The notes beneath the pieces were generated by a model. That model saw only the letters and a list, made by a program, of their open reading frames with translations, made no database searches and was not told the DNA's origin. A stretch of 64,000 nt of DNA from Haloplanus ruber (lineage in GTDB: Archaea; Halobacteriota; Halobacteria; Halobacteriales; Haloferacaceae). The translations under genes were made by a program, and so were the position numbers. The stretch covers positions 1,364,001 to 1,428,000 of the forward strand of contig NZ_JANHDK010000001.1 of assembly GCF_024494725.1 (NCBI RefSeq). The letters are read 5' to 3'. The first letter of the stretch is position 1; the number at the start of each line of letters is the position of its first letter. This document shows positions 3,001 through 34,930 of the stretch, piece after piece.

Positions 3001-4101
3001 CGGTGAAGCCAGCATGAAGTAGTAGTGTTCGTGGTCGTTGTGTTCGTCGTCGAAATCGGACTCATGGGGCTTGATCGTACGAAGGTCGTCCCCAGACACT
3101 CCGAAGAGCTGTTTTCCGAATCGGTCGGTGCTGTCGACCGTTGCGCTGGAACCCAACCAGAGAATCGGTTGGTCGGTGATGTCGTTGACGTTTTGGATGA
3201 TCTTCGCAGCGTGTGCACCCCGCATCTGCGTGTTCAGGTGCACTTCGTCGATCACAATCGTCTCGATGTCGTCAATGAGAGGATAGTGTGGTTTGAGTGC
3301 GAACCCTTCGAGCGACTCGAGCGTCGTGAGGAGGATGTCCGGCTGATTGTTGAAGACTAGATCCTTCCGGGACAGAAGCAACTCACGATCGGTGAAAGAG
3401 TGTTCCTCATCGTGCTCACAGCGTAGGGTGTAGCCTTTCGACGTTCCGTGATATTCGAATGCGTTCGGGTTCCCCTCTTCGCCGCACCAACAGTTAGCGA
3501 GTTTGAACCGAGGGCGACCACCGCTCGTCTGGAAGAATACTTGGTTCGTTTCGACTTCATTCATCTCATACGGCATATTACCGACGTAAATGCCGACCGA
3601 CAGCTGGTCTCCAGACTGAGAGTTGATGTCGTAAACGTGCTTGAGGACGCGTCCGAGTTGGTCTTGGAGCAGTGCCCGACTCGGATAGACGAACGCCACG
3701 GAATCCTGTTTCCCCTCACGAAGTAACTGATATAGAGGACCTAGGAAGGCTTCCGTCTTCCCGAATCCAGTCGGGGCGGAGAAGATTGCAGCTTTCTTTT
3801 CGTCGGTTCGACGGCGCTCCTGATCGAGTTCTTTGATCGCTTTCCAGCTCTCGACTTGGAAATCGAGCGGGTCGAAGCCAAACAGGTCGATGATACTCTG
3901 GACGAATTCGTCTGATCCCGTGTATGGACTCGTTTGCCGTCGCTTCTGGCGTTCTCGGCGGTACTTCACTGCCTCCGTGACGAAAGGTGGATCGTCTTGC
4001 TCCGCATCGAAGATCCGGCGATTGTTAAGAATCGCTTCGATCAGTGGGCGAATATCGTCGTTCAGACGTGCGGGGTTTGTGTGGCGGTCTATAAACTGCA
4101 T
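28..4101 (-). CDS. Large SF2 DEAD/DEAH-box helicase, DpdJ/Drm-like defence helicase
   Basis: The 1357-residue protein has an N-terminal superfamily 2 helicase core: Walker A APTGFGKT at residues 109-116, DEVH at 285-288, SAT at 319-321 and motif VI QRAGRAAR at 507-514. A CxC...CxH cluster (C204, C206, C228, H230) interrupts the first RecA lobe and may bind zinc. The middle (about 600-830) is charged and probably coiled. A CPEC pair lies near residue 1000, and the C-terminal third resembles the DUF1998/MZB region of DNA-translocating helicases. Large helicases of this design occur in DISARM, Druantia and as DpdJ in Dpd islands; assignment to DpdJ rests on context. The role is probably ATP-driven DNA translocation during restriction of unmodified DNA. 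It is not contiguous with the main minus-strand operon: a membrane protein, an unknown gene and a non-coding stretch lie between. Confidence 0.75.
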   Translation of the reverse strand: MQFIDRHTNPARLNDDIRPLIEAILNNRRIFDAEQDDPPFVTEAVKYRRERQKRRQTSPYTGSDEFVQSIIDLFGFDPLDFQVESWKAIKELDQERRRTDEKKAAIFSAPTGFGKTEAFLGPLYQLLREGKQDSVAFVYPSRALLQDQLGRVLKHVYDINSQSGDQLSVGIYVGNMPYEMNEVETNQVFFQTSGGRPRFKLANCWCGEEGNPNAFEYHGTSKGYTLRCEHDEEHSFTDRELLLSRKDLVFNNQPDILLTTLESLEGFALKPHYPLIDDIETIVIDEVHLNTQMRGAHAAKIIQNVNDITDQPILWLGSSATVDSTDRFGKQLFGVSGDDLRTIKPHESDFDDEHNDHEHYYFMLASPDGPGASSMSIQQHLLFGHSLLEQSSGERGKMLAFIDSISQVNQKYTQLVDADHSRELWRYHLGVDDVEDWAAVADEMDHNFLDEHLNFMPVYSDRGFDSAEVGRTDVLLSTSFLEVGIDVGEIKTITQYRTPWDLSSFKQRAGRAARKEGMDAHIAVMLSSLTGDANMFYRADRFLDSDIRTPLKTDNEVVEWIHERFRDYYEIASDVNNRNLRLQNPHELFLEEYLGDRLGYDRYEHLVLSPSEFLEEEIGVDVAPEPLLSAELVQEAEDALTKYLDDLHSEFEEIESFFGLDDGNVVRGNGAIDAYINQVQEQVLKLINALSGQVTGYRNELDHLDEKTHTTEIEELETTLDALRSKASAIPDGDSQTKVQHFEALLGDLFGLSGDLIKLQSQVNRLSDRPIPQVRTDRLNEVQDAVTRLNSLSDDDRIEAYYRTQKRVYYLQEALDELREYADYRTPFLSLYAIKHLLRGAYYFDRYLQIDDRSLGDVWYVPPNYYGDAGQFFSVFRPDSRDSTDESIDKLVSTYTPYRSEYQSETNEMHAFLPRTEVTENGVVFDFSQHVSGEVRDGVLVPDSIELSSMTDLSEEAALNIVRYCPECYQIISDLDNCLRHGKSALGKIHSDPQVRTRITERNEEVATGSIALAELTSEVTLEGVTLNIRPASYWGGSVNFDGTDPFEVKIDRPEETIGFQIDTRGLVFDMESYLQRVGHDDIRDIVARYNDFDEVDYEYVAYHTAAHFLLQLVSDVSAVNTTMLFYGFNREVGEVYIFERTEGGQGITDLVYDELSSDPGTVLEAINRIAYNPQVINERLWAREEFVEKLPCQPENEDEIEGLVTDMLDTPFDTVVERVVQEVLSSIDKADQFSTDEGIDIDDAYSIKHVIAQEQVSGSEDFPEETVSALGYDLSEVERADTVFSSPDIDGCVENLHLSECIAATGQSDSLSYVLLEALREELTRAVPTDDTSDEMFERNLLPAGEFDGTSIFLDF

Positions 4102-5527: not shown

Positions 5528-6664
5528 TCATAATAGTAGTTCAGATTCTAAAGCCAGAAGAGCACGATCAAGGTGCTCCCACCCCTCAGCATAGCCATCT
5601 TCGAAGGGTTCGCCGAGATTACTACCCCAATGGCCGGGATGTGGCGCGAAAAGAACGTATTCCCCGGATTGGCGCTGCCAAACCGTTCCGAAATTATTCG
5701 TCGTAGCTCGGTCATTACTCGCATGTTCATGGACATATACAGGTTCAGCAGAACTGATTAACCCCTTTTGCGCGTGTTTTCCAAATCCGATGATGAGCTT
5801 AGGTGCAAGGTAGTCGAGTTCTCCCTTTTGTAGTAGGCCTTTTTCCGCAGTCAGCCCACCAAATAGAAGTTGTTCATGAAGGTGCTCTGAAGTTGAACAA
5901 ACAGGAATATTACTGCTCTCTGGAGTCCCAAATTTATACCGATTCGTAATATAAAAGTCGCTGTATAAACCCCATTCTGGGTCAGGCTTACAGCCAGATA
6001 ACCCCTCAGAGTCAGCCTTAATTTCCATCTCTCCAATATTCACGTGCAACGATTCCAGAGGATGTGGTTCGGTACAACCCTCTATTAACTCAAGGTACTG
6101 ATTTCCAACATTACTTGGATTGTAAAAATAGTCCTTCCAATCTGATACAGGCGCATTCATTTTTGTGGCAGAATCAGTACCAATCGGATCCCATTGATTT
6201 TGCTCAGATACTTTGTTAACGACATCAGAAATGTTTAGCGAGTCAAAAATGGTTCCAAGAGCTATGAAGAGTCGCTCTGTCGGACCCTTCCCGGTGAAAT
6301 ATGAATTATAATGTTCGGACGAGATTCGTGCTAATTGCTCAATATTAGTGGATTCTGTCAGAGCATACCTGCAATGCTCCAACGTCGGGAACCGATCGCT
6401 TCGCTCCTTGGTTTGGTTGGGCTTTGGTTCCCCAACATCGAGACGAGGATTATCAAGAACCAACGCAATTGGTTGGTTAGCGTATGGATAGTATCGAGTA
6501 AAACTGTGGAGTGAGTCAGGATGGTCAAGACACCATTCTGGGACGTCCTCCTTTCCAGTTGCATATTTGAAATAATCCTCTGTAGTTATATCGGTCCCGA
6601 GATTATCACGGATCCGTCGCCACATCTCCAAGCGGAACTGATTGAAGCGCTTCTTACCAACCAT
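5528..6664 (-). CDS. Hypothetical protein, faintly uracil-DNA-glycosylase-like
   Basis: The 378-residue protein is alone, flanked by AT-rich non-coding DNA on the start side. Three segments are spaced like the uracil-DNA glycosylase superfamily: a hydrophobic strand ending in LDNPRLD near residue 71, a KLIIGFGKHAQKGL segment in the C-terminal third, and APHPGHWG near residue 350, which recalls the HPSP-type loop. The long middle part (about 90-260) matches nothing I know, and no iron-sulfur cysteine pattern is visible. The glycosylase reading is a weak inference. If right, a base-excising enzyme beside a modified-base island would be notable. Base composition is more AT-rich than its neighbours, suggesting separate acquisition. 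Confidence 0.5.
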   Translation of the reverse strand: MVGKKRFNQFRLEMWRRIRDNLGTDITTEDYFKYATGKEDVPEWCLDHPDSLHSFTRYYPYANQPIALVLDNPRLDVGEPKPNQTKERSDRFPTLEHCRYALTESTNIEQLARISSEHYNSYFTGKGPTERLFIALGTIFDSLNISDVVNKVSEQNQWDPIGTDSATKMNAPVSDWKDYFYNPSNVGNQYLELIEGCTEPHPLESLHVNIGEMEIKADSEGLSGCKPDPEWGLYSDFYITNRYKFGTPESSNIPVCSTSEHLHEQLLFGGLTAEKGLLQKGELDYLAPKLIIGFGKHAQKGLISSAEPVYVHEHASNDRATTNNFGTVWQRQSGEYVLFAPHPGHWGSNLGEPFEDGYAEGWEHLDRALLALESELLL

Positions 6665-7613: not shown

Positions 7614-8294
7614 CTACGAAAGTGTGAGTTCGATATAGTCTTCGATATCGGATTCGGCAAGCAGTTGGCGTTGATTCTCCGAGAGATCGGAATACGAGAG
7701 TCGCTCGTCATCGATCATACGGTAGATGAGCCCCCGAATCTCTTCCGGATACGATCCGAATAACTCCTCTTTCAGATCCTCAAACGCAGTTCGCATCTCT
7801 TCACCATACTCTCGGGCATTCTCCTTCAGTTCGGCAAGCTCGTTATTCCCGTCAAGGTAGACGTGTTCTTTCCATCGCCAGTCATCGAGAAGTCCCTCAA
7901 GAGCCTGTAGACGCATCCCACTGACACGGTCAACGCGGTCGTTCAGACGCCGCATCGCAGTAACGGTCGAATTATGCTTCAACCGGAGTTCCTGAATACG
8001 GTTCTCCACCGTCTGTTCGGCTGCATCGACATCATCTCTGAGGTTGGAAAGACGTTCTTCGACTGTATCGTAATCGTTCTGCTTAAGCAAGCGAAGAACC
8101 TCTTGAACGCGCTCTTTGGCGGTCGTATCTATCTCGATTTCCTCCTGAAAGAACGCCTTCGCAAGCGTCCGCTGGAGAATAGTCTCTTCCATCACCTCCG
8201 CAATTTCGTCGAGTTCGTCGGACAGGTATCGTCGACGATGCTCTTCTTGAACCTTCTTTAGCCGATCCTGAAGCGGTTCTGACTCAGTCGACAT
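7614..8294 (-). CDS. Coiled-coil protein, last gene of restriction operon (DpdI position)
   Basis: From the ATG at 8294 the protein is 226 residues; five more codons upstream are open. It is almost entirely charged, helical sequence with heptad-like spacing (about 10-200) and no catalytic motif. The start lies inside the end of the 954-residue ATPase gene (11-nt overlap), so the two are translationally coupled and probably interact. In bacterial Dpd islands a small gene follows dpdG-dpdH, which makes this a positional counterpart of dpdI. That equivalence is inferred from order only. Confidence 0.7.
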   Translation of the reverse strand: MSTESEPLQDRLKKVQEEHRRRYLSDELDEIAEVMEETILQRTLAKAFFQEEIEIDTTAKERVQEVLRLLKQNDYDTVEERLSNLRDDVDAAEQTVENRIQELRLKHNSTVTAMRRLNDRVDRVSGMRLQALEGLLDDWRWKEHVYLDGNNELAELKENAREYGEEMRTAFEDLKEELFGSYPEEIRGLIYRMIDDERLSYSDLSENQRQLLAESDIEDYIELTLS

Positions 8295-11148
8295 AGTACT
8301 CACCCACACTCAGGAAGTGTTCAGCGAAGTCACCGCTCGATCCTCCACCGACGATTGTAATATCGTTGTAGCGCTGATACGCGTCGGTCGCCGTGAGTTT
8401 CATACTGATGAGTATGGCTTGGATTTGTTCATCGTTCGATCTGTGAATGAGCCGGGATGCTGTCTCCGCTGCTTCGACAGCGTCGTCGATTGCCGTTTGA
8501 TCCAACGCTACGAATTTGCTCACGGATTCGATCATCTCCGAATCGGCACTGTCGTAGGTATTCAGGGTATCGACGATATCCTCAATATTCGATAGAGAGA
8601 CTGACGAGAGTTCATCCGTGAAGACGGTGATCGTATCCGACCGATACTCGTCTCCGAGGTTATCGAGGGCGGCTTGTACGTCGTAGGCTTGGTCAGCCAT
8701 GTCCCGAATTTTGTTGTCGGTATCGAACCGAACCCGTGGGGAAATTTGCTGGATGTATTGCCGACCCAGCCCTGACAGCACTTCGTAGGGTGGATTTTTG
8801 TGGAGACGCTCTCGAATCCTTGCAAGATCCAGCGTATTGGCATTCGCGCCAAAGAGCGCACCGACCATCTCCTCGAAGTACTCTCCGTATTCGAGGAAAT
8901 CACGAACGTGTGAGAACTGATCGCCCAGTTCCTCTTTGAGATCCGTTCTGATCCCCGAATCAAGAGTATACGAGCCACTCTGAGAGAAGCGTCGACTCAG
9001 AGTTTGTGCGCTCAACTCCTCGAATGGAGAGTCGAGCATAACGATGCGCGCATATCCTGCCAGAACGAAATCCGCGAAGTCGTAGTTAGCCGACTGTTTG
9101 AACAAGCGCTGTCGGGAGTGGAGTTCATTCTCCTTGATTTTCTTTCGCCAGTGCTTGGCGTACCCCGTGAGCTGTGTTCCAAGACTCCGGAACAATCCCT
9201 CGAAATCTGCATTCGATTTGTCTTCTTCCCGATAGATGCCAAACTTCAAGAGATTCTTCAAATCTGAAAGTCGGAATTCTTCAGGATCGAGGACGATTTG
9301 ATCTCCCTCTGGGGCTCGCTGAAGGGATTCGAAGACGAATGGATCTTTCTGGCTACTTAGATTATATCTGAGAGTTATATCGCCGAACAACTGGTATCCG
9401 TTCGTCAGACGCTCGATCGCATCTCTGAGGCCAGAACGGATGTATCGACTAATCTCCGAGAAATCTGCAGGGTTCTTCTGCCAAGGCTGTACGTTCGGAC
9501 GATGTTCATCGATCAACCGCTCCGCTTTCGATTTCGGTTTGGGTTGTGGTTCAGGCTCTGGTTCAGGCTCCGGATCCGGTTCAGGCCCGGTTGAAGCAAT
9601 TTCTGTCGGAATGATCGTATACCCCGAAGCTTGGTCCACGTGGTTGATACTCGAAACCAACTCTACGAAGCCGAACGCTTCGATGAAACGTGTGTCTACC
9701 TTGATTCCGTCTGTCGTTTGCTTACCATACCATCGAGCCAATTTCGCGAGCGATTCGGCTTGTTCATAAATTTCGGTCGCCGGGTCGACCGAGTTTCGTA
9801 ACGTCGATAGCCGATCCGCATCGGATGGAGAATCCACGTATCCGTCATAGTAGTCACGAAGGATGTCGAAAACTGCCATCACGTATTCACGTGGGGACTG
9901 CTCATCCTCACGGAGGCCGGCGTAGACACGACGGAGAAACGCTTCGTTGAACGGGAAGAGATCGCGGAACGACTCATCACAGAATTCACACTCTCCACAG
10001 ATAGAGTTCTCTGGCGCTGGCTCAAGCGCTAACTCAAGACCCTCGCCACTTCGGTCGTACGAGACACTTCCGTCGAAGGATTTGAAGTAGCCAAGATACG
10101 GGCGGATGAAGTCAACTGCTGACTCCTCGTCGAGAAACAGAACACTATTGGAATTCTGTCGGTTCGTGCGGTAGAATTCGAAGCGATCCTCGGCAGTTTG
10201 GGTGTGAAGAACTCCCGTCGAATCTCGCGTACCTGCGACAACGAAGTCCCAGTTATCGCTTGCCTTGTCGCGCTCCATGTAGTTACGCAACCGCTCTCCC
10301 TCCATCGCTGTAATTGCGAAATCCTCAAAGATAATTACCGGGCGTGTATCCGTGAATTTCTGACCGACACGCTCTAGAACGTCATCGAGGGACGCGGTCT
10401 GGTAGCGTTCGCGGATCACTCTCCACAGCTCTGCGTTGAACGCGGAGACCGCTTCTTCGTCGGGGATATCGTCTTCAATGATCTGGAGGAATTCGTTCCG
10501 TTGGTACGCTTGCTCCGTCACGAACTTGATCTCTTTCGCGTACTCCCCTTTTTCAACGAGAAGAGAAAGCTGATCCTTAACGAACTCGCGAATTTTTTCC
10601 TCTTTATCCTGAACTTCAACGGAGTATCCTCGAGCAGTCAGGTTTAGGATTGCACCGGACGTTGCGTTGTTCGCGACGACACTTCCGTTCTGTTCGAGAT
10701 CGTCTCTGAGTTGCTGGAAATTTGAAGCTCCGGGAAGTGACTCGTCGAAGTGATCCTCGTAGAACTCCGGAATTCGTTCGGAAAGCAGCGTCATCAGATC
10801 ATCGTCTTTGTCGACGTGGAGGATCGGTCGACCGTCGTCTCTCAGTCGGTGAGCTAAATAGGCACAGAGTTCGGATTTCCCGGTCCCGACTTCACCTTCT
10901 ATGACGACGGTGAAATTCCCAGGTCGCTCGTCGGAAAATTCACGATATACCTCTTCTTCGCCGACGATTTCCTCTTCGGATTGGGTTCCCTGCGGAGAGC
11001 GGAATACTTTGATCGGCCGATGAGTGAATTCGAAGAGTTCGCGGTTATCGGACCGGACTGCTGCGACCTTCGAGAACAGCTGTCTGAGTGTCTTTTCGTC
11101 GACATTCTGGAAGTGCGGACAGTAGAGGTCTGGTTGTTCCGTACTCAT
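8284..11148 (-). CDS. DpdH-like P-loop ATPase
   Basis: The 954-residue protein has Walker A GEVGTGKS at residues 85-92 and a Walker B strand VIIFEDF at 271-277, so it is an AAA/STAND-like ATPase. A CGECEFC zinc-type motif follows at about residue 400. Residues near 520-545 form a low-complexity linker of alternating Pro and acidic or basic residues, separating the ATPase half from a C-terminal half with no recognised fold. It starts one nucleotide after the stop of the 278-residue gene and overlaps the coiled-coil gene downstream. Size, the P-loop and the position after a DpdG-like gene suggest DpdH. DpdH is thought to belong to the restriction rather than the modification arm. Confidence 0.7.
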   Translation of the reverse strand: MSTEQPDLYCPHFQNVDEKTLRQLFSKVAAVRSDNRELFEFTHRPIKVFRSPQGTQSEEEIVGEEEVYREFSDERPGNFTVVIEGEVGTGKSELCAYLAHRLRDDGRPILHVDKDDDLMTLLSERIPEFYEDHFDESLPGASNFQQLRDDLEQNGSVVANNATSGAILNLTARGYSVEVQDKEEKIREFVKDQLSLLVEKGEYAKEIKFVTEQAYQRNEFLQIIEDDIPDEEAVSAFNAELWRVIRERYQTASLDDVLERVGQKFTDTRPVIIFEDFAITAMEGERLRNYMERDKASDNWDFVVAGTRDSTGVLHTQTAEDRFEFYRTNRQNSNSVLFLDEESAVDFIRPYLGYFKSFDGSVSYDRSGEGLELALEPAPENSICGECEFCDESFRDLFPFNEAFLRRVYAGLREDEQSPREYVMAVFDILRDYYDGYVDSPSDADRLSTLRNSVDPATEIYEQAESLAKLARWYGKQTTDGIKVDTRFIEAFGFVELVSSINHVDQASGYTIIPTEIASTGPEPDPEPEPEPEPQPKPKSKAERLIDEHRPNVQPWQKNPADFSEISRYIRSGLRDAIERLTNGYQLFGDITLRYNLSSQKDPFVFESLQRAPEGDQIVLDPEEFRLSDLKNLLKFGIYREEDKSNADFEGLFRSLGTQLTGYAKHWRKKIKENELHSRQRLFKQSANYDFADFVLAGYARIVMLDSPFEELSAQTLSRRFSQSGSYTLDSGIRTDLKEELGDQFSHVRDFLEYGEYFEEMVGALFGANANTLDLARIRERLHKNPPYEVLSGLGRQYIQQISPRVRFDTDNKIRDMADQAYDVQAALDNLGDEYRSDTITVFTDELSSVSLSNIEDIVDTLNTYDSADSEMIESVSKFVALDQTAIDDAVEAAETASRLIHRSNDEQIQAILISMKLTATDAYQRYNDITIVGGGSSGDFAEHFLSVGEYYVD
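9538..9590 (-). repeat. Low-complexity repeat coding a Pro-Glu linker
   Basis: A run of near-identical 6-nt units encodes (Pro-Glu/Asp)n inside the ATPase gene. Haloarchaeal proteins often use such linkers; slippage here would change linker length without disrupting the frame. Confidence 0.6.
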
Positions 11149-11149
11149 A

Positions 11150-11986
11150 TCAGATCAGGGTGATCGTGTTCGCTTGGCTATCAATTCCGTCGTACGGTGG
11201 CACGCCTCCGAGTCCAACGGCCCCGGCGTCACCGTACTCGACGACCTCGATTTCGCCGTCGCGGACGAGTTCGAACAGAATTCTGGCGAGTCCTTCGGGG
11301 ATGTTCCCGTCAGATGTCGATTCGACGTACAGGAGGTGCTCTCGGAGCCATCGGAGATACTCTTCTACTTCGATTCCTGGGCCACCATCGACGTCGATAC
11401 CGCGGTCGTGGGTAGCCAATTCTAGTGAGGTTCGCACCAACTCCGGATCTGGATAGACGGTGTGTTCGCGTCCTCGAACCTTGTGTACCAACCCGAGGAA
11501 GTGAACGAGCCGTGTCCAGTTCGCGAACTTGTTGTCGTTGTGTTCGATGCGCCCCTGTTGAGACTGCGGTAGATACCCGAGTTCGTTGAACCATTCGTCG
11601 ATATCGGTGTAGAGCCTCTCTTCGTTGTTTTCGAAGAACTGGATGTCGTTTCGCAGTAGGTAGCTGTAGTTCAGTAGTACGACGGCTTGTTTCCCCCACG
11701 ATCCAGGTTGACATTCCTGTGCGAGACCGTGAAGTGCCGTGAGTTTGAAATTCAGCTCGTCGTTGCCGACGTCCCACTGGAATGGCTTCGTGTAGTACTC
11801 TCCCTCTTCCTTGCCAATCATCCGGAGAAGACGTAGTCCGCCGAGAGCGGCGTCTAATCCAGAGTCGATGCCGGTATCCGTCTTGATCGCGTCCTTCGTA
11901 CAGTTCCCATCGTCGACGGAACGATAGATCGGGAGGAGGGGTCCCGGAGTCTGAACTGTGTTGAGAATGTAACCTTCACTACTCAT
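11150..11986 (-). CDS. DpdG-like winged-helix protein
   Basis: The 278-residue protein begins with a helical segment followed by a short domain resembling a winged helix (about 25-65, where the LGGLRLLRMIGKE stretch could be the recognition part). A helical middle carries the NWTRLVHFLGLVH segment near 155-167. There is no enzymatic motif. Its ATG overlaps the stop of the upstream 310-residue gene by 4 nt, and its stop is 1 nt before the ATPase start. Length, the helix-turn-helix-like start and position directly before a large ATPase match DpdG. A role as DNA-binding adaptor of the restriction complex is inferred. Confidence 0.65.
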   Translation of the reverse strand: MSSEGYILNTVQTPGPLLPIYRSVDDGNCTKDAIKTDTGIDSGLDAALGGLRLLRMIGKEEGEYYTKPFQWDVGNDELNFKLTALHGLAQECQPGSWGKQAVVLLNYSYLLRNDIQFFENNEERLYTDIDEWFNELGYLPQSQQGRIEHNDNKFANWTRLVHFLGLVHKVRGREHTVYPDPELVRTSLELATHDRGIDVDGGPGIEVEEYLRWLREHLLYVESTSDGNIPEGLARILFELVRDGEIEVVEYGDAGAVGLGGVPPYDGIDSQANTITLI

Positions 11987-12915
11987 AGGAACTCCTCTTC
12001 CAACCAGGAACGGTATCGCTTATGAATTGAGGACTCATCGGGGTTGATACTTTTCGCCTCTTGCCGCGCTTCATGAACTTTGGGACTCCGGGGAACGTAC
12101 GAGGGATCGAACGTTTTCCCCTCTTCCCCGACAGCCCTATTGAGCGACTGCGCGATATCGCGAGCTGTTTTGCGATCCCACTCGACACGTCTCCGTAGCC
12201 AGCGTTCCAAGCCCTCCACATCATCTTCGCTCAGGGGGACGGTTCCAAATTCATCTTCGCGTCCGAATATCTGGCCGAATACACTATAGAGGGGCAGATA
12301 CGGCGCGTCCGGGAGTACGTCGAATAACTCCTCGGTCGTCTCGATTGATTGGCCGGTCACGAATGCGTAGATATTCGCGTTGTCGTGGAGGAAGATGTTC
12401 ATCGTATCCAAGAGCGGGAATCCCCAACCAGCGTTCTCGTATATCGACTCGAATCCGTTGTACAGGCGTTGGTAGGAACCGACAGCCTCGACGAACTGTT
12501 CTTGATATAGCGGGCGTTGTCCTCCCCGAGGAGTGAATCGCTTGGAATCAGTAACGATGAGAAGCGTTTCCGGAACGGACGAGTACCGGCTAACTAGGTG
12601 ATCGACCGAGTATTGTGTCTCCGACTCGTAATACTCGTTAGAGATGACGACAAGATCGTCATCGAACGCTTCCTCTTCGATTTGGCCGAGAACCTTGTAT
12701 TCGTACTCGAGGTAGTCGTACTGCTGTGAATACGACTGGAACTGTCCACCCGTATTGAGGGTGCGCCAAGACGTCGGATAGGTGAACGTCTCGAAGCCAA
12801 GATAGTGAATGGCCGGAAGCGACCTGAGGAGCCACCAGTACGTCTCGTCGACATCGTCGTGAATAACTGCGACGTCGGCGTTGCGTAGCCGTTTGAAGGT
12901 CGCCGGTTCGTCCAT
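11983..12915 (-). CDS. Hypothetical protein of the helicase operon
   Basis: The 310-residue protein is not recognised. The first about 150 residues alternate hydrophobic strands and helices (VAVIHDD near 14-20, DLVVISNEYYE near 87-97, LLIVTDS near 117-123), like a Rossmann-type or receiver-type fold. The last about 80 residues are charged and helical and end in WLEEEFL. There is no HKD (phospholipase D) motif, so it is not a DpdK/DrmC equivalent. The start codon shares one base with the stop of the helicase gene (TGATG), and the end overlaps the DpdG-like gene by 4 nt. It is therefore co-translated with the helicase and probably forms part of the same complex. Confidence 0.7.
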   Translation of the reverse strand: MDEPATFKRLRNADVAVIHDDVDETYWWLLRSLPAIHYLGFETFTYPTSWRTLNTGGQFQSYSQQYDYLEYEYKVLGQIEEEAFDDDLVVISNEYYESETQYSVDHLVSRYSSVPETLLIVTDSKRFTPRGGQRPLYQEQFVEAVGSYQRLYNGFESIYENAGWGFPLLDTMNIFLHDNANIYAFVTGQSIETTEELFDVLPDAPYLPLYSVFGQIFGREDEFGTVPLSEDDVEGLERWLRRRVEWDRKTARDIAQSLNRAVGEEGKTFDPSYVPRSPKVHEARQEAKSINPDESSIHKRYRSWLEEEFL

Positions 12916-15900
12916 CAGTGGGACTCAGCTCCGATAATCTCTCCAAGTGTCCGGTTGTCTAGGAGGTCGTTTTCGAGATAGTACGCGGGCGTTCGCGAAA
13001 GTAGGAGGCACTCGTCACAGTAGTCGTCACATCGGTCACAGGCCGCAATCTCGGCGACACGAGATTCGATATCGTCTATAGCGTTCCAGACTTGCCAGGC
13101 GATTCCGTTACCTCCCTGCCGACTGTCGACAATACGGACAACCACCTCTGTTTCCTCCTTATTCGCCTTCACACGGAAGTCGGAGCGATCACACTGCGCC
13201 ACGACAGCAATCGCCTTATCCAGCGCCTGCTCCAAGCTGACCAGCGCCTGTGGCCACGAGGCCGTCTCGTGGGTCAATCGATCGAAGCGGTTTCGAACAT
13301 CGTCAAAATCGAACCGGAGAGTGATTCCCTGAGTGTGATACTGTTGTCCCACAGGAGCGTACTCCTCGGTATCCGCATCTTCCAGCCGCTCCTGCCACGA
13401 ACGTCCGCTGTCCTCGGTCGTGGAATCTTGTTCGATTAGTGCTTCGGAGCGTAGAACTTCTTTGTCGGGACTGGCCGAATGGCGACGTTCGAAGGCGAAG
13501 ATGAAGTCGGTTATCTCGAGTTCGCCGTAGCTCGCATCGCAACTGAGACCGAATACGGAGCGTGAGGACGTGTTCTGGGGTCTTGCTGAATTCTCGGACG
13601 TAATTGACGTCGCCATAAGTCCGTGGGTGTTGTACATCCGCTGCCCCCCTTTCGCAGGCTTACACTCAACTGAACTCACACCGTGAACGTTCGTCTCTTC
13701 GAGACTTTCGTCACAGTGGGGGCACTGCGCGGCGTCATGAGAGTAGCTTTCGAATGGGCGGTCGCAGTCTTCGTTGACACAGACCATGACCGTCGCCAGC
13801 GGTGTCGACGATCCGTGGACATCGTCGACGATGTAGTCCGTCCCGTGGAGGGTGATGACGGAACCAAGGTCGTTTTCCGGGCCAGGATACATATCGTAGA
13901 GTCGGCCGGATGCTTCGAATTCGATACCCTCACTGTGCCCCTGAAATTTCACGGGGAATTGCTGTCCGAAACTTCGATAGTTCGCCAGATAGCCGAGTCG
14001 AGAGAGCCACTGGTCGAGTCGGTTGTTGTTCTCGGTGAACGCCTTGTTCGTCTCCGCAGATCCCGACAGGGCGGTGATGCGAGAGAATGTCTTTTCGACG
14101 CGGTTCGACACCGACAGTGGCCCATCTTCCACGAACGCTTGCTCGAACGCGTCCACACCGGGCTGACCGAAGACAGACTCGATGTGGCGCTCCAAGGCAT
14201 CGCGACGCTCGTCGAGGAGGAAATCGACGAGAATTCCCAAATTTTCCTCCACTCCGTTCACGAACGCCCCGAGGTTCTGATTGATTTCGGTGAGTTGGTA
14301 CATCCGCTCGAATATATTTGATGGGTGGGGATTTCGAGCCAGATATGCAAAGGTTTCCGTAACGACGTGGCCGGTGAGGATTTCGTCGAATTCGTACGGA
14401 TCAGGAACTCGAACTGGTTCGAACTCGTTGAGGAACGTTTCGAGATTTCCGTAATAATGGCCGTCAACGGGATGCTCTCCTCGAATCGCGGTTAGCACCA
14501 GCGAGGAACTTCCACGTGTTCGTCCGGTTCGACCACTACGCTGGACGTAATTCGTTAGTGTCGGCGGAATACCCACTTGTGAGACAGTATCCAGCGTACC
14601 GATGTCGACACCGAGTTCCATCGTCGGAGTTGAACTAACAATGTTCACGTCGGGGTCGTCCTTACGGAATCCTTCTTCAATAGCACCACGAAGGGTGTGG
14701 GGAATATTCCCTTTATGAATTCCCACGGAAATGAACTCGGGAGAGTTCCCATTCCTGATCGGAGTCGTAATATCGTGGGCCCAGTGGTCGATCGCATAAG
14801 GCCATCCAGAGTCAGCTTGTGCGTATCCCGGATCAACGGCGAGTGATCCGTCGTCTTCTCTCGTGAATCGACGATGGGTTTCGAGTGGATGTCCACAGTT
14901 GGGACACGTATCGATCGCATCGTCTTCAGGAACAGGATAGGAACGGTAACAATCCGTACAGAAGGCTGTCCGTTCAAGCAACGTCAGATTGGAATCGTCT
15001 CGACGAAGTACACGTGTGAGGATGCCACTTTCTGCATCCGATTCGGAGTCGACAGCGTCGGCATATTCGTCACGGACGCGTTCGAGGTAGTCGAACGTTG
15101 CTTGTTTCTTTTCGTCGCTGATCGACGCGTTCGCTACCGTCTGTCTGACCTCCTCCCAAGACTGCTCGACGACGATCGATTGATTCAGTAGCCGTTGCAA
15201 AACTTTCGGTACGACTGACCCGACATCACCGCGGTCATATCCGGATCGCTTCGCAACACGGTTGATGATTTTCGGGAGCGACAGCCCCTCGATACTGATA
15301 TTGTTTTTACTGAATCCAACGCCCGGATCCGTTGCAAACAGCTTGTACGTCTCGTGTGCGATGACGATCTCTCTGGGGTCGTCGAACTCCGAAACCGGAG
15401 CGGCCGTGACGAGGGCACTGTCAAGGAGACCGGTGGCGTTGTGTAGCATCGCGTGGCCCTCAATATCGTCAAGGAGCGTTCGAAGGAAGTTGTAGGCCGT
15501 GCCGTCTTCGTCGATTTCGTTCTGAATCAGTGGCTCCCAGTACTCCTCTCGAAGACGATCCGCCACAGTTCGGAACAGTTCGTAATTGTCACGCGAGCCA
15601 CCGCTGTCGATCAGCTCTTCGATGTAGAGTGTCTGGGCCATCAGGCCGTACTCTGTTCCGATGATCCGGTCACCAACCGACTCTGCGGCGCTATGTGAAT
15701 CCGAGAAGACGAGCGTCTTCTTCGATGGAGAAGTACGGCATATCTCCGTTAGCATGTACGACAGCAAACTCGAAGTGGGTACCCCGATGTCAGAGAGGTT
15801 AGGCCACTGTTCACAACCGGGACAGGAGTCGACGGACTCAGCGTGATCGAACGGGCGGAATGTGTCCTCATCACCACTGACCTTCACTTCCACGTAGGGG

Positions 15901-17645
15901 TAGTGACACCGCTTGCAAAACTGGAGTTCGAGGTTCTCCGTGTTACAGGAAATACACCGTTTATCTCGGGTGACTTCACTGCACGCCTCGCACAGATACG
16001 CTCTGTGTGGCGGCTTGAGGAAGACGTGATATTTCTCCGTGATCATCCCAGCAAGTCGACCGAAAGCCATCACCGTACCCAGAACTCCTTCTGGATTTTC
16101 GACACCCGTCTCGGAGAGTTGTGTGAGAAGTTCGTCGTAGTGCTTGAATCCGACTTCCCCTGTCGTTCCTTCGTTGAACCACTGCGCGAATTCGGCAACC
16201 TCAGGAACCGAGTCGACGACGAAGTCGAACCACTCGCTGTATAGTCCACCGGCATCTAGGATTGCTTCGGAGAGCCGGTCATGGCCTCGGGGTGATTCGG
16301 CTACCGCACGCGGTGATTCGAACTCGCCTTCCGAAATGAGCGTCTGCGTTTCACTTCGGATGGGTGCTCGAATCCACTCAGCGTCAACCGAGAGCACTAT
16401 CTCTCCACTTGATTCCACTTCGACGAGCCCAACCTCGCTTGCTGTTTCGAATGCGTCTTCCAGTTCTTGCTCTCTCAGATCCGAAACCGTGACCCCACCC
16501 ACTCGTGCGAGCGCGATAACAGCCGCAAGGCCAGTTACATCCGTAGCTGTGAATCGGTTAAACCGAGGACGCCCGTTAACCGGAAATTCGCGGGGTGTGA
16601 ATCCGATTGAATTGATGTCGGATTCCGGCGTACCGGTGAGTTTGTGAGCGAGTTCGGTCGGATTATCGACCGTTGCCGAAACCATCGAAATCTGTGGATC
16701 GCGATCACCGTAAAACTCCTTGAGTCGTTCGGAGAGAAGACGAATTGACGCTCCAGAAATGCCGCTCCAGACGTGCGCTTCGTCGAAAACGATGTGCTCG
16801 ACGGGATGTTGTGCTGGATTTTCGCCAAGGATTTCGCGAGTCTCCGAATTGTTACTCACGAACATGTGGTCCAAAGCTTCGGGGTTCGTGAGGAGGATAT
16901 CAGCACCGTTCCGAATGGCGTCCCGCGTTACTCTGATCCACGAATACCGATTATCGTCGGTACCGACTGTCATATCCCCGAGTATGCGTAGCTTCTCGCC
17001 TTCCTCTCGTGGACACTCAAGGCCCCGAATATAGGAACCCTCCTCGATCTCGTGCTCTCTGGTACCGATACGAGTCGGTGTGTCGGAGTCCCAGATTCCG
17101 ATTGTGATTCGGTCTTCGGGTTCTCGATACCGATTAATTCGGTCAAGATACGAAATGAACCGGTTGAGTTGATCGACACCGAGCGTTTTCATCGGATACA
17201 CAATAAGTGACTTCAGACCCGACTCTTCGGTAGAGAGACAATGATTCAAAATCGGGAAAAAGAACGCCTCTGTCTTCCCTGTCGCCGTTGGGACGGCGAG
17301 GATGTTGTCATCCGAATCGGCTGAAATGGCCTCAATTGTCTGTGCCTGATGCTCGTATAATGATCCAGTTTCGTTTCCGTCGAATAGTTCGTCAACGATC
17401 GCCTCGACTAGTTCGTCGCGGTACCCGAGATCAGCCAGAAAGTCGGCAGCAGGTTGCTCGTAGAACTTCGGTGCATCGACAAATTCGACGTACGGCCCCT
17501 TCTGCTCCACGATTTCGTTCTGGACGAACGAGGTAGCGGCTTCGTCATCGACCACATGGTTAAGCCGCGTCATCTGTCGATTCCACCAAGTAATCTCCGA
17601 CGCTCTGTCGACCGCAGCTTCGAGGGTTCGTTGTGGGGAGTGCAT
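12915..17645 (-). CDS. DEAD/DEAH-box helicase with C-terminal DUF1998, DruE/DrmB/MrfA-like
   Basis: The 1576-residue protein has Walker A PTATGKT at 119-125, DEAH at 288-291, SAT at 323-325 and motif VI QRSGRTGR in the second lobe. Several zinc-ribbon CxxC pairs follow: CEAC/CISC/CKRC/CPGC in the 560-640 region, then CTDC/CPNC and CPHC. The end carries a DUF1998-type domain with CDRC...CDEC. This layout is that of the YprA/MrfA family and of large helicases in defence systems (DrmB, DruE). It opens the five-gene minus-strand operon and is probably the motor of the restriction arm. It is longer than typical MrfA proteins (about 750 residues). Its own promoter (TATA on the minus strand at 17,687-17,693) lies in the 57-nt gap from the upstream gene. 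Confidence 0.85.
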   Translation of the reverse strand: MHSPQRTLEAAVDRASEITWWNRQMTRLNHVVDDEAATSFVQNEIVEQKGPYVEFVDAPKFYEQPAADFLADLGYRDELVEAIVDELFDGNETGSLYEHQAQTIEAISADSDDNILAVPTATGKTEAFFFPILNHCLSTEESGLKSLIVYPMKTLGVDQLNRFISYLDRINRYREPEDRITIGIWDSDTPTRIGTREHEIEEGSYIRGLECPREEGEKLRILGDMTVGTDDNRYSWIRVTRDAIRNGADILLTNPEALDHMFVSNNSETREILGENPAQHPVEHIVFDEAHVWSGISGASIRLLSERLKEFYGDRDPQISMVSATVDNPTELAHKLTGTPESDINSIGFTPREFPVNGRPRFNRFTATDVTGLAAVIALARVGGVTVSDLREQELEDAFETASEVGLVEVESSGEIVLSVDAEWIRAPIRSETQTLISEGEFESPRAVAESPRGHDRLSEAILDAGGLYSEWFDFVVDSVPEVAEFAQWFNEGTTGEVGFKHYDELLTQLSETGVENPEGVLGTVMAFGRLAGMITEKYHVFLKPPHRAYLCEACSEVTRDKRCISCNTENLELQFCKRCHYPYVEVKVSGDEDTFRPFDHAESVDSCPGCEQWPNLSDIGVPTSSLLSYMLTEICRTSPSKKTLVFSDSHSAAESVGDRIIGTEYGLMAQTLYIEELIDSGGSRDNYELFRTVADRLREEYWEPLIQNEIDEDGTAYNFLRTLLDDIEGHAMLHNATGLLDSALVTAAPVSEFDDPREIVIAHETYKLFATDPGVGFSKNNISIEGLSLPKIINRVAKRSGYDRGDVGSVVPKVLQRLLNQSIVVEQSWEEVRQTVANASISDEKKQATFDYLERVRDEYADAVDSESDAESGILTRVLRRDDSNLTLLERTAFCTDCYRSYPVPEDDAIDTCPNCGHPLETHRRFTREDDGSLAVDPGYAQADSGWPYAIDHWAHDITTPIRNGNSPEFISVGIHKGNIPHTLRGAIEEGFRKDDPDVNIVSSTPTMELGVDIGTLDTVSQVGIPPTLTNYVQRSGRTGRTRGSSSLVLTAIRGEHPVDGHYYGNLETFLNEFEPVRVPDPYEFDEILTGHVVTETFAYLARNPHPSNIFERMYQLTEINQNLGAFVNGVEENLGILVDFLLDERRDALERHIESVFGQPGVDAFEQAFVEDGPLSVSNRVEKTFSRITALSGSAETNKAFTENNNRLDQWLSRLGYLANYRSFGQQFPVKFQGHSEGIEFEASGRLYDMYPGPENDLGSVITLHGTDYIVDDVHGSSTPLATVMVCVNEDCDRPFESYSHDAAQCPHCDESLEETNVHGVSSVECKPAKGGQRMYNTHGLMATSITSENSARPQNTSSRSVFGLSCDASYGELEITDFIFAFERRHSASPDKEVLRSEALIEQDSTTEDSGRSWQERLEDADTEEYAPVGQQYHTQGITLRFDFDDVRNRFDRLTHETASWPQALVSLEQALDKAIAVVAQCDRSDFRVKANKEETEVVVRIVDSRQGGNGIAWQVWNAIDDIESRVAEIAACDRCDDYCDECLLLSRTPAYYLENDLLDNRTLGEIIGAESH

Positions 17646-17702: not shown

Positions 17703-20700
17703 CTATTCGCCGACATCGAGTTTGATACGCATGGCGATTTGGTCGCTGATACCGTCAAGAGACGTTAGTTGATCCACGGACGCGCTCCGAAGGTCGTCCC
17801 GCGACTCGAAGCCCTCCTGTTGCAAGGTAGTGGAAATCTGCTCCGTGACTCCACCTACGTCAAGCAAGTCGTCCGATGGTGGATTCGTCGTTGATTCTTG
17901 GTCATCCTCTTCATCGTCCCCGTTATCCTCGCTTTCATCTTCCTGATCGTCACCCGCTGCCGGTGGCTCTAACGGAAGACGTTCTAACATACCGATTGCC
18001 CGTTCCAGTTCATCTTCAGTTTCGACGATCACGGGAAAGGTGGCGTTCGTCTTCGCATCGACAGGGAGATAGAAAGTGTCGAGATCGGCTATAAGGAACC
18101 GACCGAGAAACGTCTGGAGGGTTGGGATAGGAGGGCAAGTGGAGATGCAGCTGAACTCCGTCACACGATCTCCATTGCCGAATTCTTGGCGGTACTCGCG
18201 CATCGAAAACGGGTTTCGGTCTTTTTGCTGAGCACCGTAGTTGTCTACCTCAATCGATTCACCGGACCATCTCTTTTCGATAGCATCGAGCCACTTCTCC
18301 ATCGGGTCCCTCTGCCGACTGGTCGTTTCATCAGAGGATTCGTCATGCATATTAATTACAGATTGACACAATGATCGGAGGTTCCGGAGAACCTCGTACC
18401 TCTCGGATAGCTCGTTCTGACCGATTGTCGGTGGTTCCGTTGTGGTACCTGGGTCTGATTTGGTGTCGTCTCCTGCAGAGTTAGCGGCAGCGAGCGCGTC
18501 ATCCCAACTTTCGAAGAACTTGTATATTACTCCTGACGAATAGGGTGCAACAGACGCAAAATAAGACATGTTTGGCCGTCCATCGGCAGAATCCTTGGCC
18601 TGTTGGACGTAATCGATCACAGACTGTTTCAGATCAAGTCCTGCTTCTCTGAGGGCGTCATCGATGCTTCCGAATTCCCTCTGGTACTCGTATTGAGAGA
18701 ATTCTCCGTGCTTGTCAATTTGTATCGTGAGAGGAACGAATCCACACTCCTCTCGTACTCTTCGGAGATCCTCAAGAAGCTCTTGGCGAGAAATCGTTTC
18801 GATGGATGCGGCGTCAATCGCGCTGTCCCACGAATCGAAAAATTGGTACACGTCCGAGGTGCTGTACGTTGAGTGCTTGTGGTAGTCACTCGTAGATGGA
18901 CGCTTCCCTAATTCCTCTGAGACCCGCTCTAATTCGGCGAGGACGTCTTCGCGTGTCGGATCAGAAACGTCAGGTGAGGAACTATCCTCGGGAGTCTCGG
19001 AGTTTGTCCCAGATGTACCTGCATCCTGCTCAGTTCCCCTCTCACGTGTTGCTTCTTTTTTCACATCATCGAAGGCAATTGCTATCGCCTCCTCATACGT
19101 TCCAAATTCGTGTTCGAACGCCGATTCGGAGTAGTTAGAGAATTTTCGAACGTGTACTGGATCTGGAGCCTTTTCGAGACGGTTCCGGATTCTTTGGAGA
19201 TCGCTGATGAGTTCCGAGCGACTGGGGGAAGGCGATTTCTTCTGTGTTTTTTCCGGTTCATTCTCGGGGAATGAGGAACGAGCCCCGTCTGAACGCTCTC
19301 GCTGGGTCTCTGATGATGAGTTGTCGGTCTGATATTGATAGTTTCGTCTCTGTGGTCTCTCCGAATCCGAGGCGGTTGAAATCTCTGCTTGATACTCTTT
19401 GAGACGAGCCGTCGAGCGTTCTAGCTCATTCGCGGCCGTCAACGCATTATCAATGGACGACTGAACATCGTCTAGCGTCTCTTGTGGAATATGCATTCCA
19501 TTGTCTGCAAGAGATAGATACCGCTTTGCCTCGGCATAAGCGGTGGTGATCTGTTTGAGTTTGCTCAGCTTCCCGTTGACACGAGTGACTACATCCTCGA
19601 CCTGTGATGTTCGAATACCTGGCTCGTCGGCGATGCATTGGAGCTCCTCTTTCGCCGTCTCTAACCGTGAGGTTGCGTCGGCGAGATCGTCCTCACCGGT
19701 ATCGACATCGTTTATCGTCCAAGCTGCGTGTCGTGTCGTCTTGCGGGTGTTCTCGGAGAGTTGTTCCGAATCCCCGACAAAGACGGTTTCCGGTCCACTC
19801 TGTGGCTCATCTGCGCCGGAATCACTCGTATTCTCAGGCCTCGTCTCAGAGACGGTCCTCTTGGAACTCTCTGACTGACTATCGTCAGCATCGGCAGCTG
19901 AGGAAGAAAATTGGTCAGTCGACGTTTTTTCTTCCGGATCAGTGTCTCCCTGATCAAGTTCGCTCAGCGCTCTATCAAGGCGGTCGATAGCGTTCTCCAC
20001 CTGTGATGCCCGAATTCCTGGTTCGTCAGCGATGCGTCGGAGTTCCTCTTTTGCAGTCTCTAACCGTGGGATTGCATCGGTGGGGGCGTCCTCACTGGTA
20101 TCTACATCATCGATTGTCCAAGCCGCGTGTCGTGCTGTTTCACGGATGTCCTCAGCGAGTTGCTCCGAATCTCTGACGAAAACGGCCTCCGGTCCACTCT
20201 GTGGCTCGTCTCCGCTGGAATCATCCCCGCTCGCGGAACTCATTCTAGAGGCCGTCGCCTCCGTACTTTCCGATTGGCGGCCGTTGGTGTCGGGAGGAGG
20301 AGACAGTGGCTGCCCGGACCGCGTTTCCTCACTGGGGTCCGTCCCTTTGTCGTTCGTAACTGGGACGAATTGTTCCCGAACGTACTCAACGGCACCTCCA
20401 GGATCTGACGACTCCCGTTTCTTGACGCCGAATTCGTACTGTTTTGAGGAAGTTTCGAAAGTGATGGTTGTCGTTAAAAACCCGCTCTGTAGTTCTACAC
20501 CGGAGATGTCATTGATATCAACTTCGAGAAACGTATCACCCTCATCATCACCAATGAGGAAGAAGATACGACGATTCGTAATTGCTACTAGAGCACGGTA
20601 GCTCCCGCTGGGGGATAGTCTATGAGATTGGTTCGATTCCTTCGACGTAATCGCGACTCCGTTCGACCGACTTACGAGAAGGAAATGAATCGTCTCGTGG

Positions 20701-20861
20701 TCGTCCAGCCTCTCGTAAACGGAACTGTCCGCGAGATAGGCCTTGGAGAATAGGCCCGACCTCTCGCCAGTAAACATCTGGAGGTCAATCGATCCTTTCG
20801 CTTGAGAGAGCAGGGTGTCCGGATCGGGCTTCTCATCTGGAGGGGTATTCGGGCTTTCCAT
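17703..20861 (-). CDS. Multidomain protein: PH-like domain, tandem duplication, four HNH-associated repeats, helix-hairpin-helix
   Basis: The 1052-residue protein has a bacterial PH-like domain (about 40-165, with TNRRIFFLIG and the strand FLTTTITFETSSK). Two tandem copies of an about 85-residue unit follow (219-303 and 352-436). Next are four repeats of the type associated with HNH/homing endonucleases (about 551-597, 637-684, 692-740 and 746-793; consensus L..L..v...LG..P....y.....YS......F.sWd.A...A). The end has helix-hairpin-helix sequence (about 1005-1052), and an acidic Asp/Glu tract precedes it. No nuclease motif (HNH, PD-(D/E)XK) is visible. These are DNA-recognition parts without a catalytic part, so it may guide or sense DNA for the neighbouring helicase operon. 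Its start faces a long non-coding stretch, from which the modification genes run the other way. Confidence 0.8.
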   Translation of the reverse strand: MESPNTPPDEKPDPDTLLSQAKGSIDLQMFTGERSGLFSKAYLADSSVYERLDDHETIHFLLVSRSNGVAITSKESNQSHRLSPSGSYRALVAITNRRIFFLIGDDEGDTFLEVDINDISGVELQSGFLTTTITFETSSKQYEFGVKKRESSDPGGAVEYVREQFVPVTNDKGTDPSEETRSGQPLSPPPDTNGRQSESTEATASRMSSASGDDSSGDEPQSGPEAVFVRDSEQLAEDIRETARHAAWTIDDVDTSEDAPTDAIPRLETAKEELRRIADEPGIRASQVENAIDRLDRALSELDQGDTDPEEKTSTDQFSSSAADADDSQSESSKRTVSETRPENTSDSGADEPQSGPETVFVGDSEQLSENTRKTTRHAAWTINDVDTGEDDLADATSRLETAKEELQCIADEPGIRTSQVEDVVTRVNGKLSKLKQITTAYAEAKRYLSLADNGMHIPQETLDDVQSSIDNALTAANELERSTARLKEYQAEISTASDSERPQRRNYQYQTDNSSSETQRERSDGARSSFPENEPEKTQKKSPSPSRSELISDLQRIRNRLEKAPDPVHVRKFSNYSESAFEHEFGTYEEAIAIAFDDVKKEATRERGTEQDAGTSGTNSETPEDSSSPDVSDPTREDVLAELERVSEELGKRPSTSDYHKHSTYSTSDVYQFFDSWDSAIDAASIETISRQELLEDLRRVREECGFVPLTIQIDKHGEFSQYEYQREFGSIDDALREAGLDLKQSVIDYVQQAKDSADGRPNMSYFASVAPYSSGVIYKFFESWDDALAAANSAGDDTKSDPGTTTEPPTIGQNELSERYEVLRNLRSLCQSVINMHDESSDETTSRQRDPMEKWLDAIEKRWSGESIEVDNYGAQQKDRNPFSMREYRQEFGNGDRVTEFSCISTCPPIPTLQTFLGRFLIADLDTFYLPVDAKTNATFPVIVETEDELERAIGMLERLPLEPPAAGDDQEDESEDNGDDEEDDQESTTNPPSDDLLDVGGVTEQISTTLQQEGFESRDDLRSASVDQLTSLDGISDQIAMRIKLDVGE
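19554..19808 (-). repeat. Second copy of internal 85-codon tandem duplication
   Basis: It encodes residues 352-436 of the PH/HNH-repeat protein and closely matches 19,953-20,207. Shared stretches include EPQSGPE, RHAAWTI, DVDT and ADEPGIR. The similarity at the nucleotide level suggests a fairly recent duplication. Confidence 0.8.
19953..20207 (-). repeat. First copy of internal 85-codon tandem duplication
   Basis: It encodes residues 219-303 of the PH/HNH-repeat protein, the partner of 19,554-19,808, with a spacer of about 48 codons between the copies. Confidence 0.8.
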
Positions 20862-21723
20862 CGGTAACTACGGAGCCCAACACATTCGATGTAACTCGTT
20901 CACTGTGCCTCTGTTTCCTCTACTGGCACGGCATATCATATAAGTTGAGCCTACCACGGGGCGAGAAGTGACATTTAGATGTCGAGAGAGGTCTTCCAAG
21001 ATTGGTACGTGGATCGGACTTATTTCGAACCAACTCATCAATGTGTGATTCGTATTGGATATAGTGAGCAATCCGGAGAGATGCCTCCTGGTCGATTCCG
21101 AACCATTACTCTACTGTACATGGTACAATCTTGTCGGGTGATTGTCTCCTCATATCTGCTATTTTCCCTTAATTGCTGCCTCGAGCGCAGGATCGCAGAA
21201 TCTTGTGAATGTGTGCTCCATCGTGATGTTCAACGCACCGGCAACTATCCATGACTCGGCGGTGTCGGAGGAATCGAGGAGCGGGAGGCCCCTTCGGCCA
21301 TCTCTTTGACAGGGTAGTGTTCGTAGTCATCACGTTCGACTTGGCCGAGAAATCTCGAGTACAACCGCACCGATGGCGGCTTCGAATCCGCCGGAGGTGT
21401 CTCGATTCTCCGAAGAAGTATCGTCACCGGTGGGTCCAACAGCTTTCGGGAAGGCGTCCACGTACCGGTCGATTAGTATCAACTCTGATCTCGTACGTGT
21501 GAATATTTATCATGATTCTAAGTCACGGGGAGAGGCTCTCCGATATAAATCGACAATTCCGATGCCAATTCTCTCTGACGAGACTGGACCTCTCGAGTGA
21601 CGGAGATAGCGCTGGATTCTCTCATCGGCACCGAAATATAAGATGGAGGTAGTTGCGGCTTCACTCGCCTGCGGCGGCATGACTTGGGAAAGCTTCAAGC
21701 CGGTGTGGTCTCAACGGCAGGGT
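20862..21723. other. Long divergent non-coding region between restriction and modification genes
   Basis: No gene is convincing here. The region separates the minus-strand PH/HNH-repeat gene from the plus-strand modification genes and should hold both promoters. A TATA-like AAATATAAG lies near 21,632-21,640, and a minus-strand TTATATGATATG lies near 20,933-20,944. A GC-richer patch at 21,245-21,439 could be a gene fragment on the minus strand, but I cannot identify it. Confidence 0.4.
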
Positions 21724-28659: not shown

Positions 28660-28662
28660 TCT

Positions 28663-29439: not shown

Positions 29440-29441
29440 TC

Positions 29442-34888: not shown

Positions 34889-34930
34889 CCTCTCACGGCA
34901 ATGACCAGGGTTCGAATCCCTGTCGGAGCA
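34889..34930 (+). pseudogene. tRNA 3'-half remnant (tRNA-Glu-like), probable att site
   Basis: The segment holds an intact T-arm CAGGG-TTCGAAT-CCCTG (34,906-34,922), then TCGGAGC and A, an acceptor 3' strand with discriminator. Upstream, CCTCTC and ATGACC match the anticodon loop (CTC) and variable region of haloarchaeal tRNA-Glu, but the anticodon stem is broken and there is no 5' half. AT-rich island DNA is on the left and GC-rich core DNA on the right. This is what remains at the far junction when an element integrates into a tRNA 3' end. The intact tRNA should then be to the left of this window. Confidence 0.65.

Follow-up and report, generated by a model that had tools for sequence, protein, structure and literature searches.

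What do five contiguous helicase and ATPase genes do in the haloarchaeon Haloplanus ruber and, if they form the restriction arm of a DNA-modification system, what cuts the DNA? In bacterial Dpd, dpdA-C make the mark whereas dpdD-K have been termed a restriction operon (PMC11888242), and the transfer of eight genes next to dpdCAB lowered transformation (reviewed in PMC12707154). The genes studied here lie in a stretch of 64,000 nucleotides, hereafter the window (NZ_JANHDK010000001.1, positions 1,364,001 to 1,428,000). A preliminary description saw in it a Dpd-like arm of five overlapping or touching genes, running on one strand from 17645 to 7614, and considered the cutting part to be missing or novel, no nuclease being visible.

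A conserved five-gene cassette

The open reading frames and their junctions bear out this layout. All five genes are on the minus strand; the first codes for a helicase of the YprA/MrfA family (1576 residues; 12915-17645) and overlaps by 1 nt the gene for a 310-residue protein (11983-12915), which itself overlaps by 4 nt the gene for a DpdG homologue of 278 residues (11150-11986). A gap of 1 nt separates the latter from the gene for a DpdH homologue of 954 residues (8284-11148), and the last gene, in the position of dpdI, codes for a coiled-coil protein of 231 residues (CC231; 7614-8309), which overlaps the DpdH-like gene by 26 nt if it starts at the GTG and by 11 nt if it starts at an in-frame ATG (8294). 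When stretches were fetched around DpdH-like matches, giving 30 haloarchaeal neighbourhoods, the order helicase, 310-residue protein, DpdG, DpdH and coiled-coil protein was kept on one strand in 27. The DpdG-DpdH junction is an overlap of exactly 4 nt at 19 of these 27 loci and short overlaps prevail, although start codons were picked mechanically and the overlaps are thus approximate for some loci. The kept order together with the short overlaps establishes the gene content as that of a conserved cassette, rather than a chance run. The five genes also diverge as one unit (rho of 0.84-0.95 between pairwise distances).

Profiles of 27 families, including those from the bacterial dpd clusters of Enterobacter, E. 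coli, Agrobacterium, Shinella, Deinococcus, Nostoc and two further genomes, were compared by hhalign, each against the 26 others. The 278-residue family matched bacterial DpdG (probability 93.5, E 2.3e-7, the second-best of the 26 other profiles scoring 1.3) and the 954-residue family matched bacterial DpdH (probability 99.2, E 9e-20, over 608 columns); because these E-values refer to a single pair, the real evidence is the contrast with the other profiles, among which DpdG, DpdH and DpdK each have one clear match. The homologies are thereby established, and the profile searches that the preliminary description had proposed as a check on its DpdG-like and DpdH-like labels came out in favour of both. 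Its remark that the order of the two genes and a small one recalls the bacterial restriction module also holds, as the same order is found in bacterial dpd operons. The 278-residue protein itself had no match in Pfam, PADLOC, PHROGs or NCBIfam, and profile searches of the PDB and Pfam with its family were empty or at noise level. The 954-residue protein was matched to DpdH by NCBIfam (6e-14, far below the family cut-off) and by PADLOC (9.9e-14); it carries a Walker A motif at residue 85, intact in all 31 DpdH homologues, and a Walker B-like VIIFED at 271, and its N-terminus resembles nSTAND NTPase models (1.1e-5, below Pfam's cut-off). Judged by these motifs and profiles, it is a DpdH homologue and a predicted P-loop (STAND-like) ATPase.

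CC231 has a coiled coil and the position of DpdI, following DpdG and DpdH as in bacteria, and the profile comparison was negative: hhalign gave no match of its family to DpdI above background, with full-length sequences or with C-terminal tails. A route through the 252-residue gene of type II-like loci was negative as well, and the identification of CC231 as DpdI is unsupported.

Some variation was seen around the cassette. In several congeneric families (L021-L028) the DpdH homologues share about 60% identity with the window protein in their first 490-530 residues but only 35-38% in the remainder, which suggests domain swapping or fast C-terminal divergence. In G054 (L071-L072) the genes for DpdG, DpdH and the coiled-coil protein occur in two tandem sets, the DpdH of the second set being 33% identical to that of the window. 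Located 57 bp upstream of the cassette is a gene for a 1052-residue protein (17703-20861, minus strand) with a PH-like domain, four homing-endonuclease-associated HNH repeats and a helix-hairpin-helix end. Whether it might be the first gene of the cassette and the cutter was examined, but it was discarded as a core component because its homologues, found near many relatives, vary in presence, position and orientation and because no HNH catalytic domain was matched in Pfam.

Two YprA-family helicases and a PLD nuclease

The DUF1998 domain that had been noticed in the cassette helicase was recovered by Pfam as MZB (6.3e-9; residues 1471-1547), along with DEAD (2.9e-20) and Helicase_C (2.5e-11); the protein stops 29 residues past MZB and has no fused nuclease. 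Among PADLOC models, DruE scored best (1.5e-41), ahead of DpdJ (3.7e-25) and DISARM DrmA (1e-14), and among solved structures the repair helicase YprA/MrfA (6znp, 2.8e-25) comes closest. On these profile scores, the helicase is placed in the Druantia/ARMADA-like branch of the YprA/MrfA family. The idea of a Dpd-like helicase arm is therefore upheld as regards DpdG and DpdH but not as regards the cassette helicase, the Dpd-type helicase being encoded by a separate gene. This gene (28-4101, minus strand) codes for DpdJ, a second YprA-family helicase, of 1357 residues (NCBIfam DpdJ, 9.8e-43).

At the left edge of the window, the 3'-end of the dpdJ gene is overlapped by a minus-strand gene (1-101, continuing to window position -405) for a PLD nuclease of 168 residues. 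It has the signature LHAKAVVCD...GSAN (HxK...GSxN) and matches DpdK in PADLOC (5.9e-13) and in hhalign against the bacterial DpdK profile (E 1.7e-16). Only its first 101 bases are inside the window, which is why it was missed in the preliminary description; the statement that no nuclease is visible stands for the five cassette proteins, none of which showed a nuclease domain in profile searches of Pfam, PADLOC, PHROGs and NCBIfam, but not for the locus, where the DpdK-like PLD protein adjoins DpdJ, and the view that the cutting part is missing or novel is not supported. The DpdK-like PLD gene is found in 22 of the 30 neighbourhoods, exactly the 22 that have a full-length DpdJ. No DpdK-like PLD gene was detected in the fetched stretches of G103, G277, G387 and G054, the absence being weak for G103, a short contig, and for G054, whose stretch lacks DpdJ.

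In several relatives the DpdJ homologue directly follows the cassette, and a Natrinema plasmid (NZ_CP082247) has the order helicase, 310-residue protein, DpdG, DpdH, coiled-coil protein, DpdJ and PLD. In the window, three unrelated genes lie between the cassette and dpdJ. One of them (5528-6664, minus strand), not seen at the other loci, codes for a 378-residue protein with a weak match to the UDG superfamily (Pfam UDG, 0.0039). DpdJ and the PLD nuclease diverge together (rho 0.74). A different arrangement occurs in G387 (L066-L067) and G233 (L085-L086), where a shortened DpdJ of about 905 residues adjoins a protein of 687-783 residues, along with genes for 1088-residue and 357-residue proteins; the 687-783-residue protein may carry the split-off DUF1998 part, giving a DISARM-like split helicase.

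The putative DNA-marking genes and the tRNA-Glu island

Genes with a putative role in marking DNA lie on the other side of the cassette. On the plus strand, a gene for a DUF6884 protein (21643-22200; Pfam DUF6884, 1.1e-13; PADLOC DpdC, just 0.008), a domain carried by dpdC (PMC11888242), is followed by genes for a DpdA-like TGT of 414 residues (paralogue a; 22197-23441; Pfam TGT, 3.3e-25; PADLOC DpdA, 4.3e-5) and for a GHKL ATPase (23441-24997; Pfam HATPase_c_3, 2.4e-15). The gene for paralogue b, of 668 residues, with TGT (Pfam, 4.2e-26) and DUF5591 (4.7e-21) domains, is on the minus strand (25024-27030), and a plus-strand operon for preQ0 synthesis (28201-30769) codes for QueD, QueE, FolE and QueC (Pfam PTPS, Radical_SAM, GTP_cyclohydroI and QueC). 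The latter is the only full QueC match of the genome, and six of seven congeners lack a QueC match at 1e-20. Since the operon also lies within the genomic island described below, we regard the preQ0 genes as island-borne, and the view that they are merely housekeeping is weakened.

The cassette and both DpdA paralogues occur together in 26 of 29 genomes, within 33 kb in 25 of these 26, and three genomes have the cassette with neither paralogue at our cut-off. A paralogue was found in 12-16 of the 362 haloarchaeal genomes that lack the cassette. Co-occurrence is thus established, although the Fisher test (P of about 1e-28, uncorrected for relatedness) overstates independence since the genomes are related to one another. 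Pairwise distances divide the genes into three units: the five cassette genes; DpdJ with the PLD nuclease; and paralogue a with the GHKL ATPase (rho 0.92). The modification (TGT) genes co-diverge weakly with the cassette (rho 0.17-0.48). The restriction cassette and the marking module are thus inherited as separate units, which are found together yet undergo exchange; given the low correlations and the three genomes devoid of a DpdA paralogue, the two may be less tightly coupled than the halves of a classic restriction-modification pair.

The whole defence cluster and the preQ0 operon are the cargo of a genomic island of 50,980 bp, extending from window position -16051 (L031:3950) to 34930. 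Its left end is a tRNA-Glu(CTC) gene (-16125 to -16051, locus L031), close to integrase-like (by motif) and serine-recombinase-like genes, and its right end is attR, a perfect 42-bp copy of the 3'-end of the tRNA gene (34889-34930, plus strand). The G+C content is 51.1%, against 67% on both flanks. In the congener G280 the site is empty: the sequence found here from 35243 onwards sets in about 360 bp past the same tRNA-Glu gene. The island borders are thereby established, and the locus offers a complete copy within a bounded 51-kb element, whose two attachment sites are both present and whose empty target site is seen in a congener.

Class, proposed mechanism and the 310-residue protein

Bell et al. 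described BRIGADE, in a preprint of September 2025, as a class of haloarchaeal systems that have 7-deazaguanine genes, a nuclease of the PLD or PD-(D/E)xK type and, as a rule, two YprA helicases; the class was predicted from helicase phylogeny without experimental test, and type I has one ARMADA-like and one Dpd-branch helicase (PMC12458937). Our locus appears to be a copy of BRIGADE type I, and so to belong to a class already known. It shares with it the haloarchaeal host, the two YprA helicases (the 1576-residue, ARMADA/Druantia-like protein and the 1357-residue DpdJ), a 7-deazaguanine cluster on the island (both TGT paralogues together with QueD, QueE, FolE and QueC), and a nearby PLD nuclease which, at 168 residues, is too short to have the added N-terminal 4-helix bundle of DISARM. 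No difference was found in the defining traits, every one that could be checked being present; restriction to halophilic archaea was covered in part, namely in 391 genomes of the class to which the window belongs, 29 of which have a DpdH-like gene, in plasmid relatives, which are all haloarchaeal, and in viral contigs, where none was found. The BRIGADE main text does not go through DpdG, DpdH or the 310-residue protein gene by gene and gives no island borders, and some of the gene annotations presented here may already be in the supplement (PMC12458937). New here are the placement of the cluster as cargo of a tRNA-Glu(CTC) island with both att sites and an empty site in a congener, and the divergence of the five genes as a unit loosely coupled to the modification genes.

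With bacterial Dpd (dpdA-K) the locus shares homologues of DpdG, DpdH, DpdJ and DpdK, and the Natrinema plasmid is colinear with G-H-I-J-K, the I by position; the locus thus supports the homology of the archaeal cassette with bacterial DpdG, DpdH and DpdK. However, the archaeal loci have a YprA helicase and the 310-residue protein in place of DpdE-DpdF, and their TGT comes as a pair of diverged paralogues alongside a GHKL ATPase. A neighbourhood scan found no match to DpdD, DpdE or DpdF in this locus or in 29 others, for which reason we do not file it as canonical Dpd; DpdB was not found among the system genes. The likeness to Druantia and ARMADA lies in the best score with DruE and in the DUF1998/MZB C-terminus, but the cassette lacks the fused C-terminal nuclease of ARMADA and Druantia III, and it has DpdG and DpdH as partners instead of the PglX-like methylase and BrxHII-like helicase of ARMADA. 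Plain Druantia was rejected because of these partners and the short end of the helicase. DISARM, in which the helicase is split into DrmA and DrmB and accompanied by a methyltransferase, was also rejected, MZB being fused in one protein here and the DrmA score low. The neighbourhoods of G038, G062 and G233 code for a 310-residue homologue, DpdG, DpdH, a protein of 252-259 residues and a helicase of 1850 residues, and G038 and G062 also for a 652-residue PLD protein; by gene content they may represent BRIGADE type II.

We consider it likely that, within the restriction arm of a BRIGADE type I system, sensing and translocation fall to the five genes, the cut being made by the DpdJ-associated PLD nuclease while the cell's own DNA is marked with a base derived from preQ0. 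QueD, QueE, QueC and FolE would supply preQ0, which the two DpdA-like transglycosylases, together with the DUF6884 protein and the GHKL ATPase, would put in place of guanine in the DNA of the cell; this DNA is thus probably marked with an altered guanine. Unmarked DNA would be engaged by a complex of the Druantia/ARMADA-like helicase, the 310-residue protein, DpdG, the DpdH ATPase, probably as an ATP-dependent checkpoint, and the coiled-coil protein, and would be cut by the PLD nuclease brought in by DpdJ. The biochemical steps, the identity of the base and the formation of a complex are all inferred, by analogy with bacterial Dpd. Haloarchaeal hosts are genetically tractable, making marking and restriction directly testable.

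Might the cassette cut DNA alone, the 310-residue protein or a part of the helicase being an unrecognised nuclease and DpdJ-PLD a second, separable effector? The five genes diverge more tightly with one another than with DpdJ (rho 0.49-0.71) or the PLD nuclease (rho 0.35-0.71), four genomes showed no DpdK-like PLD in the fetched stretches, and the 310-residue protein has no known fold. Yet its near-invariant residues, judged by eye, form no recognised nuclease signature, the helicase stops just past MZB, and a PLD gene stands beside every full-length DpdJ, two of the four absences being weak for the reasons given above; we regard autonomous cutting as improbable. Similarly doubtful, and slightly more so, is that DpdH, through its nSTAND-like N-terminus, acts as a sensor, with cell death or dormancy as the response to infection and no restriction system involved. 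The tight link to DNA-modification genes and the homology to bacterial genes described as a restriction operon argue against it, as does the related ARMADA, which protects without growth arrest (PMC12458937). That the closest solved relative of the helicase is a repair protein could suggest a DNA-repair operon around an MrfA-type helicase, incidentally near modification genes; given the better score with DruE, the patchy presence (29 of 391 genomes), the island location and the DpdG and DpdH partners, we find this very hard to credit.

Under the restriction-arm reading, all parts of the locus except one are identified, with Walker and HKD motifs intact, and the 310-residue protein is the main question that the analysis singles out. 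The protein had no match in Pfam, PHROG, NCBIfam, PADLOC or PDB sequences, its family gave empty or noise-level results in profile searches of the PDB and Pfam, and it matched none of the 26 other family profiles compared by hhalign; outside systems of this class it thus has no known relative. Scanning of viral contigs revealed no relatives of the 310- or the 278-residue protein, and single-sequence AlphaFold gave no usable fold for either (mean pLDDT of 37 and 33, respectively). Strong matches to the DpdH-like gene and the gene for the 310-residue protein occur in the same 29 of 391 haloarchaeal genomes, and a diverged copy is present beside the type II-like cassettes, so that the protein is always paired with a DpdG/DpdH cassette. 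It may be a mark reader or an adaptor. A bolder proposal, which we put forward as possible though rather unlikely, is that it acts as a novel effector or reads the 7-deazaguanine mark, giving a discrimination step in archaea that is absent from bacterial Dpd, and that the DpdG-DpdH cassette is a restriction arm exchangeable between different DNA-marking modules.

Twelve genomes have TGT paralogue b and no cassette. In two of those among them whose neighbourhoods were fetched, G253 (L128) and G259 (L122-L123), the TGT/DUF6884/GHKL marking module adjoins a different arm, formed by a protein of 684 or 624 residues, a 318-residue protein, a P-loop protein of 1031 residues, a 290-residue protein and a related YprA helicase. 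The C-terminus of the 684/624-residue protein recalls PglZ by eye, and a comparison of this arm with the BREX-Related Capture systems (PMC12839542) is suggested.
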